In this document: positions 39,274 to 47,374 of the stretch, one piece after another
Layout of the letters: every line of letters starts with the position of its first letter
How positions within the stretch are numbered: position 1 is the stretch's first letter
Made by a program: the position numbers and the translations under genes
The notes under the pieces: generated by a model
The model's input: the letters and a program-made list of their open reading frames with translations, nothing else
Told to the model about the DNA's origin: nothing
Database searches by the model: none
NCBI GenBank assembly: GCA_937928595.1
Contig: CALGJV010000028.1
Coordinates: 1-48,048 of the forward strand
Source: an uncultured Phycisphaerae bacterium
GTDB taxonomy: Bacteria > Planctomycetota > Phycisphaerae > UBA1845 > Fen-1342
Reading direction: 5' to 3'
DNA: 48,048 nucleotides

Positions 39274-40959
39274 ATGACCGCTGCGCCGCCGCCGCCGAGT
39301 CACGCCCGGGCGGGTTCCGCCCCGCCCGAGGCGGTCGGTACGTCGCTGCGGGTCCAGCTCGCGGTGCTCGTGGCGGTGATCGGGCCGCTGATCGTGCTGT
39401 GCCAGGTCATTTCGTACTGGCGCACCGACGTGGTCGATGACCAGATGTTCGGCTACTACGGCTGGCGCATCGCGCACGGCGCGGTCGTCTACCGCGACGT
39501 GTGGGACAACAAGCCGCCGGGGATCTACTGGATCAACGCCTTGGGCTTCCGGATCGGAGCCGACCACTACCTCGGCGTGGTCGTGCTGTGCGGCGTAGCC
39601 CTGGCCGTCGCGCATGCGGCATTCTTCGTCGCCGCGGCAAGCGTTTACCGCCGCGGCGCCGCCGCCGTCACCACGCTGCTGCTCGCGCTCTACCTGATGC
39701 ACGCCTACTTCACGGGCGGCAGCAACCGCACGGAGACGTTCCTCGTCGCGGCCGAGCTGACCGGCGTGGCGCTTTACCTGCGCGGCTGGGCGCGGGGCGG
39801 CGGCGGGTGGCGCTGGCTGTTGGCCGGTACGGCCTGTGGGACGGCCTTCCTGTTCAAGCAGGTCGGGCTGGCCGCCTGGGGTTGCATGGGGCTGCACCTG
39901 CTGATCTGCGCCGCGCGGCGGCAAGTGCCTTGGTCCGCGGCGCTCGGGCGCGGGCTGCTGCTGGCGGTCGGAGCGGCGCTCCCGGTTGGCGCGGCCGGCC
40001 TGGTCCTTTGGTCGCAGGGCGTCCTGGCGGACGCGCTGTTCGCGACGTTCGGGTTCAACCGGGCGTACTTCGCGGCCGGCGCGAGCCAGTTCCCCTTCAA
40101 CTACGCCAACTACATGCTTCTCCGCGAGCACATCTTCCCGACCCTCCAGCTGCCGATCCTCATGGCGCTCGTGTCGGCCATTCACGGCGGGCTGTGGTGG
40201 TGGCGGCCGCGGTACCGCCCGCCGGAGATCGAGACCCAGGTGCAGGTGACCGGCGGGCACTGCCCGGGGCACCTGCTGTTCTTCGGCCTGTGGCTGCTGG
40301 TGGCGACGTACGGCGCGCTGATGAGCCCGCACGCGTTCCGGCATTACATCGTGCCGGCGATTCCCCCGCTGCTGCTGGTGGCGGGGTATCTGGTCAACGT
40401 CCTGCGGGCGGAACTGAGCCTGCTCCGGCGCGTTCAGCAGCGCGCATGGGTCGCCTGTGCCTGCGTTGTCATGGCGTACTTCTCGGTCGAAGCGTTTCGC
40501 ACCCAGTTCAGCGAGATGGCGAAAGTCTGGTTGTACCGAATCGAGGGGCACGAACCGGCCGAGTGGGAGGTCGTCGGCGATGCCGTGGCGGCCCTGACCG
40601 GGCCGGCCGACCGCATGCAGGCGTGGGGCTACCTGCCGGGGGCGTACCTGCGGGCGCGGCGCGTCAACGCGTGCCGGTTCACGACGACGGAGAAGGTGGG
40701 GCAGGTGCACCGCGAGGCGCGGTTCGTTGTCGACGAGCTCGAGTCGACGCTGAGAGCGGCGCCGCCCGCGGTGCTCGTGCTGTCGCACAAAGACTATACC
40801 TGGATGACGGAGGCCGACGAGAGCGGACAGCCAAGCGACTTTCAGCTCGGTCCGTGGATCGACGCGCACTACCGCCGCGTGGTCGAGATCCCGAGGTTCG
40901 GCACGTACTACGTCTTCCTGCGCAACGACCTGGCGGCGGCCCGGGAGCCGCGCGGATGA
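39274..40959 (+). CDS. Membrane glycosyltransferase, GT39/ArnT-like
   Basis: 561 residues with about 10-12 membrane segments from residue 25. The first periplasmic loop holds WRTDVVDDQMFGYYGWRI and DVWDNKPPGIYWINALG, the Asp-rich and DNKPP motifs typical of dolichyl/undecaprenyl-phosphate sugar transferases (GT39, ArnT and the related DUF2029-type). It should move a lipid-linked sugar onto an envelope acceptor outside the inner membrane. A C-terminal soluble domain begins about residue 420 (EAFRTQFSEMAKVWLY). The start ATG lies 14 bp after the sod stop; the stop overlaps acpS. Confidence 0.88.
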   Translation: MTAAPPPPSHARAGSAPPEAVGTSLRVQLAVLVAVIGPLIVLCQVISYWRTDVVDDQMFGYYGWRIAHGAVVYRDVWDNKPPGIYWINALGFRIGADHYLGVVVLCGVALAVAHAAFFVAAASVYRRGAAAVTTLLLALYLMHAYFTGGSNRTETFLVAAELTGVALYLRGWARGGGGWRWLLAGTACGTAFLFKQVGLAAWGCMGLHLLICAARRQVPWSAALGRGLLLAVGAALPVGAAGLVLWSQGVLADALFATFGFNRAYFAAGASQFPFNYANYMLLREHIFPTLQLPILMALVSAIHGGLWWWRPRYRPPEIETQVQVTGGHCPGHLLFFGLWLLVATYGALMSPHAFRHYIVPAIPPLLLVAGYLVNVLRAELSLLRRVQQRAWVACACVVMAYFSVEAFRTQFSEMAKVWLYRIEGHEPAEWEVVGDAVAALTGPADRMQAWGYLPGAYLRARRVNACRFTTTEKVGQVHREARFVVDELESTLRAAPPAVLVLSHKDYTWMTEADESGQPSDFQLGPWIDAHYRRVVEIPRFGTYYVFLRNDLAAAREPRG

Positions 40960-41360
40960 CCACGGATTCCGGTCAGCGCATCGTCGGGCACGGCGTCGAC
41001 CTGGTGCACACCCCCCGCATCGCGCGGGCCTGGCAGACGCACGGCGACCGCTTTCTCGCCCGGGTCTTCACGCCCGCCGAGCAGCAGCACTGCCTGCGGC
41101 ACAAGACGCCGGAGATCCCGCTCAGCGGGCGCTTCGCGGCCAAGGAGGCCGTGATGAAAGCGCTCGGCACCGGCTGGAGCGGCGGGGTCGAATGGACCGA
41201 CATCGAGACGCTGCCGGATCCCCTCGGCCGGCCGCTCGTCACGCTGCACGGCCGGACGGCGGCGCTGGCGGCGAGCCTCGGGATCGCGCACCTGCTCGTG
41301 TCGATTTCGCACAGCGGGGAGTACGCGGTGGCCTCGGTGGTGGCGGTTGGTCCGGCCTGA
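40956..41360 (+). CDS. acpS: Holo-[acyl-carrier-protein] synthase
   Basis: 134 residues. GHGVDLVHTPRIARA with Mg ligand D15, and GRFAAKEAVMKALGTGW with E64, are the AcpS phosphopantetheinyl transferase signature; LVSISHSGEYAVASVVA closes the family. It activates ACP by transferring 4-phosphopantetheine from CoA. It overlaps the upstream glycosyltransferase gene by 4 bases (ATGA) with a GGGAG ribosome site inside that gene. Last gene of its operon, ending at a shared hairpin with the convergent gene. Confidence 0.95.
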   Translation: MTTDSGQRIVGHGVDLVHTPRIARAWQTHGDRFLARVFTPAEQQHCLRHKTPEIPLSGRFAAKEAVMKALGTGWSGGVEWTDIETLPDPLGRPLVTLHGRTAALAASLGIAHLLVSISHSGEYAVASVVAVGPA

Positions 41361-43150: not shown

Positions 43151-43468
43151 TCAGGTCATCGCGCGGGGTTGACCGTCGAGGCAGACCCCGAACACGCGCA
43201 GCAGCGCACCCGTGCGACTTCCGACGCCGAGCTTCCGGTACAACCGCTCAAGGTGTGTATGCACGGTGTGCGGCGAGATGTCCAGCTCGTGCGCGACGCC
43301 CAGTTCGGTCTGGTCGTCAAACAGGCACTTGACGATGTCGAGCTCCCGGCCGGAGAGCTGCAACGCCCGCTGAACGGTCTCCCACTGGCAGTCGTTCAGA
43401 ATCTGCCGCCCGGGGTAGCGTTCCGGCGACCCGACGTCCGGCGCGTTCGGCCCTTCGGCACACATCAT
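43151..43468 (-). CDS. LuxR-type HTH transcriptional regulator without receiver
   Basis: 105 residues. Residues about 37-95 form a LuxR_C/GerE helix-turn-helix: LSGRELDIVKCLFDDQTE, AHELDISPHTVHTHLERLY and RKLGVGSRTGALLRVFG. The N-terminal 36 residues have no receiver or ligand domain. Planctomycetes carry many such small HTH proteins. Target is unknown; the adjacent genes on both sides are candidates. Start is one of two tandem ATGs (43468/43465); SD is weak. Confidence 0.9.
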   Translation of the reverse strand: MMCAEGPNAPDVGSPERYPGRQILNDCQWETVQRALQLSGRELDIVKCLFDDQTELGVAHELDISPHTVHTHLERLYRKLGVGSRTGALLRVFGVCLDGQPRAMT

Positions 43469-43729: not shown

Positions 43730-45223
43730 GTGCCCGTGCACAAGTTCGCGTGCTACTCGCTCGACGGCCGGCCGTTGCCGCCCGATTTGCAGGGGGCTCA
43801 CTTGCTCGGCACCGACAACGTTCCGGTGCGGGGCGAGATCAGCCATTGCGAAAGTGAAATCCGCTGCGCAGCACGGACGAGCGACCCGGTCGCCCTCTCA
43901 TTGTTGTGGCCGGTTCCCGACTACGGGATGGTCCAGTTGCAGACGACGCGCCTGCCCCCCCGGGATCGCCCGTACAACCTCCATCTCGAACTGGCCCGGC
44001 ACCTGCTCATGCGGATCAGCGTGAAGCGCGAGGAGTGGGGCCTGTTCGACTTTCCGGGCATGGATCAGATCGCGGAACGGATCGACACCGCCCGCGACGC
44101 CTTCATCCGCGGGCTTCAGAACAGCGACGATCCGCCCGCGGCCGCACGCTGGGCCGATGAAGCGCTGACGGTCGGTCTGGACGCGGCGGAGAAGATGAGC
44201 GCGTTCCACGCGGGCGTCTTCCTCGGCCGGCGGCAGCAAACCGGCGGCTTCGCCCGGCCGTTCCTGGGCGCCGCGCTCCCGGCGGCCGGCTTCGACCAGC
44301 CCGCGGCGCTGAAGGCGGTGGCGGAGCTGGTGGATTTCGTCCGCGTGCCGATGGTTTGGCGCGAGATCCAGCCCACCGAACAGGGCCTCCAGTTCGACCG
44401 GATCGACGCGACGCTGAGAGCCGCGACCGCCGCGAAGCTCGGCCTGCGGGGCGGGCCGCTGCTGGTGTTCGGTGTCCGCTCCGTGCCGGACTGGATGTAC
44501 ATCTGGGAGAACGACTTCGAGGCGATCTACGACGCCGCGCGCGAGCACGTGCAGCGCATCGTGCAACGCTATGCCAAGACGATCACGTCGTGGGTCGTCG
44601 TGAGCGGCCTGCACGCGGAGAGCGTGTTCGGCTTCACGTTCGAGCAGATCATGGAGCTGACGCGGATGGCCGCGAGCGTGACCAAGCAGGTCGCGCCCCG
44701 CAGCCAGGTCCTGATCGAGCTCTGCCAGCCGTGGGGCGAGTACTACGCTCGCAACCAGCAGACCATTCCGCCGCTGCTGTACGCCGACATGATCGTCCAG
44801 AGCGGCGTGAGCTTCGACGGTTTCGGCCTCCAGCTCCTCTTCGGGGCCGGCGCCGAGGGCTACCAGCTCCGCGATCCGCTGCAGGTCAGCGCGCTGATCG
44901 ACAAGCTCGCCAACCTGGGCAAGCCGCTGCACGTCACGGCGCTCGGGGCTCCATCCGGCACCCGCGCCGGCAACCCCGCGGCCGCGGGCGGCCAGTGGCA
45001 CGCGCCCTGGTCCGACACGGTGCAGGCCGACTGGCTCGTCACGCTGGCCGAGATCGCCCTTTCCAAGCCGTACGTCGAGACGGTCTGTTTCCAGCCGTTG
45101 ACCGACGCCTCCGACGACGTGATCGCCGAGGGCGGGCTGCTTCGACCGAATCTCACGCCCAAGCCGGCGTTCACCCGCCTGCACGAATGGCGCCGCAGGC
45201 TCGTCGCGGGAGCCGCAAAATGA
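43730..45223 (+). CDS. Glycoside hydrolase family 10-like barrel protein apparently lacking catalytic glutamates
   Basis: 497 residues. Residues about 160-440 look like a GH10 (endo-xylanase) barrel: VRVPMVWREIQPTEQG, VFGVRSVPDWMYIW, and the conserved ITSWVVVSG and PLHVTALGA strands. In GH10 these last two read W-D-V-V-N-E and T-E-L-D and hold the acid/base and nucleophile Glu; here the positions are S292-G293 and A404. So it is likely a carbohydrate-binding or inactive relative unless my strand pairing is off (E297 is near). Residues 1-155 are an unknown N-terminal domain. No signal peptide. Start GTG with GGAG 5 bases before. It overlaps the next gene by 4 bases. Such proteins occur in planctomycetes; role unknown. 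Confidence 0.75.
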   Translation: MPVHKFACYSLDGRPLPPDLQGAHLLGTDNVPVRGEISHCESEIRCAARTSDPVALSLLWPVPDYGMVQLQTTRLPPRDRPYNLHLELARHLLMRISVKREEWGLFDFPGMDQIAERIDTARDAFIRGLQNSDDPPAAARWADEALTVGLDAAEKMSAFHAGVFLGRRQQTGGFARPFLGAALPAAGFDQPAALKAVAELVDFVRVPMVWREIQPTEQGLQFDRIDATLRAATAAKLGLRGGPLLVFGVRSVPDWMYIWENDFEAIYDAAREHVQRIVQRYAKTITSWVVVSGLHAESVFGFTFEQIMELTRMAASVTKQVAPRSQVLIELCQPWGEYYARNQQTIPPLLYADMIVQSGVSFDGFGLQLLFGAGAEGYQLRDPLQVSALIDKLANLGKPLHVTALGAPSGTRAGNPAAAGGQWHAPWSDTVQADWLVTLAEIALSKPYVETVCFQPLTDASDDVIAEGGLLRPNLTPKPAFTRLHEWRRRLVAGAAK

Positions 45224-45657
45224 GCCCGGACCCGCGCGCCGCCGCGGCACGCCCGGCCCGCGCCGCGGCGTCGGCGAGCACCGCGGTCGTACTCGCGGCG
45301 GTCACGGTCGGCCTGGTCGTGGCTGAGGTTCGCGTGCCGGAGGGCGTCGCGCTGGCCGCCGGGCAACTCGCCTACCGCCTCGATCCCAACACCGCGTCGC
45401 GCGACGAGGTTCTGCTTCTCCCGAACGTCGGCCCGCGTCTCGCCGACGAGATCGTCGCTTACCGGACGCAGGCGGCTCCCGCACCGGCCTTCCGCACGCC
45501 GGCCGATCTGGGCCGGGTCCGCGGGTTCGGGCCCGCGCGCATCGCGCAGGTCGTGCCGTTGCTTCGTTTCCCCGACAGTCGTGACGGGGCCGCGCCGCCC
45601 ACCGGTGCCGTTGAGCCCGCCGACGATCCGCCGGCGCCCGAGGAAGACGCGCCGTGA
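45220..45657 (+). CDS. ComEA-like helix-hairpin-helix protein
   Basis: 145 residues. Single membrane segment at about 18-37 (STAVVLAAVTVGLVVAEV), then a ComEA-type double helix-hairpin-helix DNA-binding domain: LDPNTASRDEVLLLPNVGPRLADEIVAYR and FRTPADLGRVRGFGPARIAQVVPLL. ComEA binds incoming DNA at the membrane in natural transformation, but no other com gene is in the window. A Pro/Glu-rich tail ends the protein. Start overlaps the GH10-like gene (ATGA) and its stop overlaps manA (GTGA). Confidence 0.85.
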   Translation: MSPDPRAAAARPARAAASASTAVVLAAVTVGLVVAEVRVPEGVALAAGQLAYRLDPNTASRDEVLLLPNVGPRLADEIVAYRTQAAPAPAFRTPADLGRVRGFGPARIAQVVPLLRFPDSRDGAAPPTGAVEPADDPPAPEEDAP

Positions 45658-46643
45658 ACGCGCCGCTTCCCGTCGTCTTCGCACCGCTGCTGCAACCGAA
45701 GCCGTGGGGCGGCACGCGGCTCGCGACGCTGCTCGGCAAGACGCTGCCGCCCGAGCCGATCGGTGAATCGTGGGAGCTCGTCAGCCTGCCGCACGCCGAG
45801 TCGCGGGTCGCCCGCGGCCCGCTGGTCGGCCGCACCCTGGCGGAGTTGGTCGCACACTGGCAGGCGCGCCTGCTCGGACGGGCGGCGCTCGCCGACGGCC
45901 GGTTTCCGTTGCTGATCAAGTTCCTCGACGCCGCCGAGAACCTCAGCATTCAGGTGCATCCGCGTCCGGCGGTGGGCGACCCGCTCGGCTGGCAGCCGGG
46001 CGTGAAGCACGAGGCGTGGTACGTCATCCACGCGGAGCCGGACGCGCGGGTGTACATCGGGCTGCGGTCGGGCGTCACCCCCAAGGAGGTCGCGGCCGCG
46101 GTCGGCTCGAGGCGCCTGGTCGAGCTGCTGCGGGCGTGGCCGGCGCGCGCCGGCGATTGCTTCTACGTTCCGAGCGGTACCCTGCACGCGTTGGGGGCCG
46201 GGCTGGTGGTCGCCGAGCCGCAGACACCGTCGGACGTGACGTTCCGTGCGTACGACTGGGACCGCGTTGATGCCTGCGGCCGCGGGCGCGCCCTGCACGT
46301 GGCGGACGCGCTCGCGAACGTGCGGTACGACGTGACGCCGGAGATGATCGTCCCCGCGCGGGCGGCCGCGCGCGGGAGCACGGGCCCCGGGGAACAGGTG
46401 GCCGCGTGCCCGCGCTTCCGCGTGGTGGCGCTGCACCATGCGGCCGGCCGGGCGACGGTCGACCTCGGCGGCGAGCCGGCGATCTGGATCGTGCTGAGCG
46501 GCGCGGGCCGGTTGCGCTCGGCGGGGGGGGATTGCGCGTTTCAGCGCGGGGATGTCGTGCTGCTGCCGGCCGAGGGGGTGACGGGGGCGGAGTTCGACGC
46601 GGAGGCCCGTTGGCTGGAGGTGACGATCCCGTGCGGGGAGTGA
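45654..46643 (+). CDS. manA: Mannose-6-phosphate isomerase, class I
   Basis: 329 residues. Cupin-type isomerase of mannose-6-phosphate and fructose-6-phosphate, feeding GDP-mannose and other mannosyl precursors. Zinc/active-site residues: Q100 and H102 (SIQVHPRP), E120 (KHEAWYV) and H178 (SGTLHALG). N-terminal LLQPKPWGGTRLA and IGESWELVS are typical. The C-terminal half has the second cupin barrel. Start GTG overlaps the stop of the HhH gene by 4 bases, so the three genes form one translationally coupled operon; the link of manA to a GH10-like barrel and a DNA-binding-type HhH protein is unexplained. Confidence 0.93.
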   Translation: MNAPLPVVFAPLLQPKPWGGTRLATLLGKTLPPEPIGESWELVSLPHAESRVARGPLVGRTLAELVAHWQARLLGRAALADGRFPLLIKFLDAAENLSIQVHPRPAVGDPLGWQPGVKHEAWYVIHAEPDARVYIGLRSGVTPKEVAAAVGSRRLVELLRAWPARAGDCFYVPSGTLHALGAGLVVAEPQTPSDVTFRAYDWDRVDACGRGRALHVADALANVRYDVTPEMIVPARAAARGSTGPGEQVAACPRFRVVALHHAAGRATVDLGGEPAIWIVLSGAGRLRSAGGDCAFQRGDVVLLPAEGVTGAEFDAEARWLEVTIPCGE

Positions 46644-47237
46644 GCAGACGCCGCGGGTGGGCTCGATCAGGGACAGGCTGACGGCGGCCGCCTTCCGACG
46701 GCGTGCGTCGGGCGCTCCCTCGATTCAAGAGCACGCGGGCGTTCGCGCCCCGGGCGGCCCACGACCGGTTCGCGCATGATGCAGTGGTTCCGTCGCGGGC
46801 CGCTCGAACGGCCGACTCCCGGTCGCGCGCCCGAGTACCGGGGCACGGCCGGTGGCGCTGGGGTGGTCGGTCGTTCGGGCCGGCTGGCGACCCGTTGGCG
46901 TGTCGCGGCTGCGGGCGTCGATGCGGACCTTGACTCTCCGGCCGTTTCTGGCGGCAAACTGCGGCGTGGGACGCTCGTGCGCGGAGTAGAACCCCGCGCG
47001 CAGTGTCGATCTTTGCCGGCCAACCGGAGCGCGATACACTGCTGGCGCTTTGGTCGAATCGGCCCGGGCGTCGGCATGAACAGTCGCAAGCACCCGGCGG
47101 GCGTGATGGGTCCAACGTGCCGCGTTCCCCCCCGGTGCGTCGCGTGCTTTCCAACGCGTGCCGTCGTGGCACCGTGTGGCAGGGCCCGGCCGGGTGCCAA
47201 GTGGCCGGCGACGCAGCAACCGTCGGTTGCGTTCATA
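46644..47237. other. Gene-free spacer between manA and tRNA-Thr
   Basis: 594 bp. The long open frames here run into the tRNA and are low-complexity Arg/Gly sequences without ribosome sites, so no protein gene is supported. A promoter-like pair at 47013-47040 may serve the tRNA. Confidence 0.5.
47013..47040 (+). promoter_or_regulatory. Possible promoter for tRNA-Thr
   Basis: TTGCCG (47013-47018), 16-base spacer, TACACT (47035-47040), about 200 bases before the tRNA. The long leader makes this less certain. Confidence 0.35.
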
Positions 47238-47310
47238 GCCACCGTAGCTCAACTGGCAGAGCAGCGGTTTTGTAAACCGCAGGTTGCGGGTTCGAGTCCC
47301 GCCGGTGGCT
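47238..47310 (+). tRNA. tRNA-Thr (anticodon UGU)
   Basis: 73 bases. Acceptor GCCACCG pairs with CGGTGGC, discriminator T at 47310; anticodon arm GCGGT-TTTGTAA-ACCGC gives UGU; T arm GCGGG-TTCGAGT-CCCGC. CCA not encoded. Its 3' end borders an integrase remnant, the usual position of an attachment site. Confidence 0.97.
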
Positions 47311-47374
47311 TTGAGACATGGCGTGACACCGAAGTACAACCGCTGCCCATCGCGTCACTTACAGCAGCCCCGCG

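Follow-up and report, generated by a model that had tools for sequence, protein, structure and literature searches.

What does a glycoside hydrolase barrel do in a bacterium that keeps the fold but not the residues that hydrolyse? The question is raised by a three-gene locus of an uncultured Phycisphaerae bacterium, found in the window, the whole stretch of 48,048 nucleotides analysed here. The sequence-only reading of this DNA had described a GH10-like barrel in which both catalytic glutamates appeared changed, followed by a membrane-anchored ComEA-like gene and by manA, and had suggested, as one option, a planctomycete-specific protein that senses or binds sugar in connection with mannose metabolism.

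The three genes and their products

The locus comprises three open reading frames, all on the plus strand, which overlap successively by 4 bases (ATGA and GTGA), as had been noted from the sequence. Its features are listed below, with residue numbers of the pseudo-GH10 protein running from GTG 43730.

43730-45223, plus strand: ORF 1, 497 aa, the pseudo-GH10 frame, opening at GTG 43730
43736-45223, plus strand: likelier extent of the pseudo-GH10 protein, 495 aa from GTG 43736
43736-44251, plus strand: N-terminal module, a small beta domain (model residues 2-69) and three helices (82-168)
43940-44044, plus strand: most conserved stretch, residues 71-105, with the motif T..L..R..PY.L..EL.R and then W103
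44267-45220, plus strand: GH10-like (beta/alpha)8 barrel, about residues 180-497, from Pfam and predicted structure
44603-44608, plus strand: codons of S292-G293, at the position of the Asn-Glu (acid/base) pair, by alignment
44939-44941, plus strand: codon of A404, at the position of the nucleophile Glu, by alignment
45220-45657, plus strand: ORF 2, 145 aa, ComEA-like helix-hairpin-helix (HhH) protein with a hydrophobic N-terminal segment
45654-46643, plus strand: ORF 3, 329 aa, manA, type I mannose-6-phosphate isomerase

GTG 43736 is the likelier start of the first gene because relatives open at the codon matching V3. Its product matches the Pfam family GH10 (PF00331) at 38.6 bits against a cut-off of 22.1, and by-eye inspection of its N-terminus reveals neither a signal peptide nor a transmembrane segment, so that the protein is probably cytoplasmic. 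The second product matches HHH_3 (42.2 bits, cut-off 27), and the third matches both PMI_typeI_cat (44.9 bits, cut-off 22) and NCBIfam TIGR00218 (ManA type I; 121.1, above the equivalog cut-off of 116.2), which confirms the gene as manA.

Elsewhere in the window, a gene for a PMT_2-type mannosyltransferase-like membrane protein (39274-40959) overlaps by 4 bases an acpS-like phosphopantetheinyl transferase gene (40956-41360), the pair lying about 2.4 kb upstream of the barrel gene. A LuxR-type (GerE) regulator gene (43151-43468, minus strand) is divergent from the barrel gene, and a tRNA-Thr gene with a TGT anticodon occupies 47237-47311 on the plus strand.

The GH10 fold, its catalytic positions and the N-terminal module

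The GH10-like character of the barrel, indicated by the Pfam score, is corroborated by structure prediction. AlphaFold, supplied with 19 homologues, modelled the protein at a pLDDT of 87.2 and a pTM of 0.89; the best 50 PDB chains returned by Foldseek for the full model are all GH10, and VIA gave a Z of 29.9 against 8b73, with GH1 chains next at about 27. With the GH10 xylanases 8b73, 7d88 and 1vbr the protein shares a (beta/alpha)8 barrel of about 300 residues (Z 28-30, rmsd 2.8-3.5, 17-18% identity), whereas it lacks both catalytic glutamates and most of the aligned xylose contacts, adds an N-terminal module and has no signal peptide that we could see.

In both phmmer and profile alignments, the xylanase motif WDVVNE pairs with WVVVSG (288-293) and HITEL pairs with HVTAL (401-405); S292-G293 therefore replaces the Asn-Glu pair and A404 the nucleophile Glu. 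Glu occurs in none of 63 aligned homologues at the acid/base column and in one, L067, at the nucleophile column; when further divergent rows are included, it is found at 293 in 0/68 inactive sequences and at 404 in 1/68, again L067, while both glutamates are kept in 13/13 active-type GH10 relatives from other planctomycetes. These sets of 68 and 13 rows contain a few near-identical pairs, and the catalytic columns were aligned for a subset of the 247 genomes with a match in the two group surveys described below. The inactive homologues otherwise carry Ala, Gly, Ser, Phe, Leu or a gap at the nucleophile column. The exceptional L067 (G167) has Lys-Gly at the acid/base pair and sits on a long branch within the inactive clade. 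E297, which had been named as a possible substitute acid/base residue, is ruled out, since its column is variable (D, G, N, E or W). The change of both catalytic positions proposed from the sequence is thus confirmed, and it is old and shared across the inactive homologues.

The sugar cleft is altered as well. At the positions aligned with the xylose contacts of the GH10 -1 subsite, which we take to be two His, a Trp and an Asn, the window protein has G242 for His, V246 for Trp, S292 for Asn and L370 for the second His, and the beta-8 Trp is replaced by Q455. By alignment, the acid/base Glu, the nucleophile Glu and most of the xylose contacts of active GH10 enzymes are absent, which weakens the proposal of a glycan-binding barrel. 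W255, Y338, D459 and an acidic residue at 337 are common to the inactive lineage and its active relatives, and sugar binding may therefore persist. Conserved charged residues of the barrel include D262, E305, D382 and D391.

Modelled alone, the N-terminal 172 residues reach an AlphaFold pLDDT of 92.8. The module matched no Pfam family and nothing significant in Foldseek (best E 0.15), and VIA found no convincing whole-domain match in the PDB, its Z of up to 10.5 covering three helices only and not exceeding the level quoted for widespread helical arrangements. Weighted conservation peaks at residues 71-105 (2.91 bits), compared with 2.30 for the barrel and 2.21 for the hand-assigned catalytic-face loops, alignment and secondary structure having served to place residues on the surface or in the cleft. 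All 68 inactive rows have E87 and R90, and W103 is nearly invariant; the conservation peak could stem from domain packing.

Distribution, ancestry and gene neighbourhood

The gene is present in all 24 high-quality relatives, in 148/150 genomes of the window's class (some of the listed matches, as in G427 and G382, being partial or weak) and in 99/100 genomes of a second group, the order of G278, which probably takes in Planctopirus limnophila. Most genomes hold one full-length copy. Within this sampling, the catalytic loss is conserved and the gene is near-universal, mostly single-copy and core in its distribution; because a near-universal gene shows the same loss, its occurrence in the window is not a matter of chance. 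In an even sample of the phylum, 61/294 genomes match, some of them solely through active GH10 proteins. All 20 loci recovered by an all-prokaryote scan, which reaches close relatives only, come from planctomycetes, consistent with the suggested restriction to this phylum.

For the barrel, a maximum-likelihood tree computed from 81 sequences (LG+G4), unrooted apart from a classical GH10 outgroup, separates active from inactive sequences on branches with support of 99-100. Adjoining the inactive clade are two intracellular planctomycete GH10-type proteins, L116 (G324) and L117 (G101), which share with it the PW..(E/D)..QA.W motif, the RD pair and the beta-8 Asp. Unlike the inactive lineage, both retain the catalytic NE and TE; in place of R90 and W103 they have T/I and Y/L, respectively. 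The helical part of the N-terminal module recurs in L116 (E 2.5e-7 at a Z setting of 100,000), while the match of L117 to it fell short of significance. Read by eye, the neighbours of the two genes include no sugar-degradation cluster. On the simplest reading of these sequences, catalysis would have been lost once, in an enzyme that was already intracellular. Pairwise dN/dS is about 0.22-0.45, with dS probably underestimated; together with full-length conservation and near-universal presence, this rules out a decaying pseudogene.

The HhH gene lies directly after the barrel gene in about 50 of 56 genomes of the class: 22/23 in the window's family (counting G020, where the gene is present though missed by the profile), 10/13 further ones in the order and 18/20 further ones in the class. 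The pairing is not obligatory, since the second group, family f7 and individual genomes lack it (0/11 in f38); the ComEA-like genes of the second group stand elsewhere, apart from the barrel gene. ManA follows in 19/23 genomes of the window's family; every other genome checked lacks this linkage. The linkage to HhH is therefore deep within the class and that to manA shallow, so that the loss of linkage in relatives, which the sequence-only reading had regarded as decisive against it, is seen for manA outside its own family and not for HhH within the class. This confinement was also our reason for rejecting manA as a functional partner.

The HHH_3 score, the hydrophobic N-terminus and the class-wide adjacency bear out the description of the second gene as a ComEA-like partner. 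In its own genome, G000, it encodes the only short HHH_3 protein, a second weak match lying in a 459-residue frame. It resembles ComEA in its domain and hydrophobic N-terminus and differs from it in scoring 27.7 bits against TIGR01259, far below the cut-off of 152.35. ComEC was found in 23/23 genomes tested (in G000 it is G000:C7, E 3.6e-48); because the same genomes also carry this gene, the membrane-anchored DNA-binding protein is likely a DNA-uptake receptor.

Other neighbours recur. Upstream of the barrel gene, loci of both groups (L081, L095, L151 and others) have purC, for the most part in divergent orientation. G000 and G013 carry purC at another place, and we discarded it as a partner, reading its proximity as old synteny. 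In the probable P. limnophila genome, the homologue occupies about 4,947,185-4,948,657 on the complement strand of the 5,423,075-base chromosome, and there too it is divergent from purC. In f13 and f14 (L086, L087, L090, L093) the barrel-HhH pair is followed by a protein of 165-196 residues beginning ADWEIKK or SDWEIKK and by a putative lipoprotein; neither gene, as checked in L087, had a Pfam match. The barrel gene of one f7 genome (L107) is preceded by genes that, on inspection by eye, encode a CdaA-like diadenylate cyclase and a YbbR-like protein.

A protein retained for another role

We consider it probable that the barrel gene product is a cytoplasmic pseudo-glycosidase, kept after a single catalytic loss as a binding or scaffold protein. 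The ancestor common to the window's class and the second group would have possessed an intracellular enzyme of family GH10 that carried the beta/helical module at its N-terminus; both catalytic glutamates would have been lost once in that ancestor and the protein then kept as a near-universal gene, its role most likely non-hydrolytic. The working surface may lie at the N-terminal motif (71-105; E87, R90, W103) and not at the old sugar cleft. In most of the class the HhH gene would be translationally coupled to the barrel gene, with manA a late, family-specific arrival in the operon.

Of the alternatives, a non-catalytic sensor that reports sugar or mannose status through a barrel still able to bind an oligosaccharide or a sugar phosphate inside the cell draws on the retained GH10 fold, on W255, Y338 and acidic position 337, which are shared with active relatives, and on the manA neighbour in the window's family. 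However, the positions aligned with xylose contacts are changed, the catalytic-face loops are conserved no better than the rest of the barrel, and the manA link vanishes outside the family, and we regard such a sensor as unlikely; its tie to mannose metabolism, as originally put forward, is unsupported because manA is linked in that family alone. The protein could also be an enzyme with a new active site, placed on another barrel loop or in the N-terminal module and built on the invariant charged E87 and R90 or the conserved D262, E305, D382 and D391, but no catalytic motif was recognised and the active cousins L116 and L117 have several of these residues too, which leaves this option quite improbable.

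That the barrel protein works with the ComEA-like protein in taking up or handling DNA seems to us slightly less probable still. The 4-base coupling, the position beside the one short ComEA-like gene throughout the class, the presence of ComEC in all genomes tested and an mfd-like gene downstream in some f9 loci speak for it, yet the second group has the barrel protein with no HhH neighbour, and the inner membrane is predicted to separate the two proteins, ComEA working outside it and the barrel protein inside. A broader version, in which a core planctomycete factor uses the GH10 barrel as a scaffold for a new N-terminal domain with an important cell function and is coupled at class level to a DNA-uptake receptor, we hold to be a long shot, about on a par with the sugar sensor.

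Glycosidase barrels kept without catalysis are known from the GH18 fold, as in narbonin, concanavalin B and YKL-40. These pseudo-glycosidases belong to another GH family and other organisms, whereas nearly all genomes of two large bacterial groups carry the gene seen here. The open-access literature yielded no account of a planctomycete GH10 pseudoenzyme, and we found no description of a barrel-comEA operon in the literature searched. A transposon essentiality map exists for P. limnophila (PMC10632474), and no such gene is named in the main text of that paper.

The pseudo-GH10 protein is a core pseudoenzyme and not a decaying gene. Automatic annotation would wrongly label it a xylanase in hundreds of planctomycete genomes, and counts of plant-polymer degradation would come out too high. 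In a phylum noted for unusual cell biology, a gene kept by almost every genome of two large groups stands out as core; with the catalytic residues apparently lost once and long ago, the protein probably does another job, perhaps through its distinctive N-terminal module.
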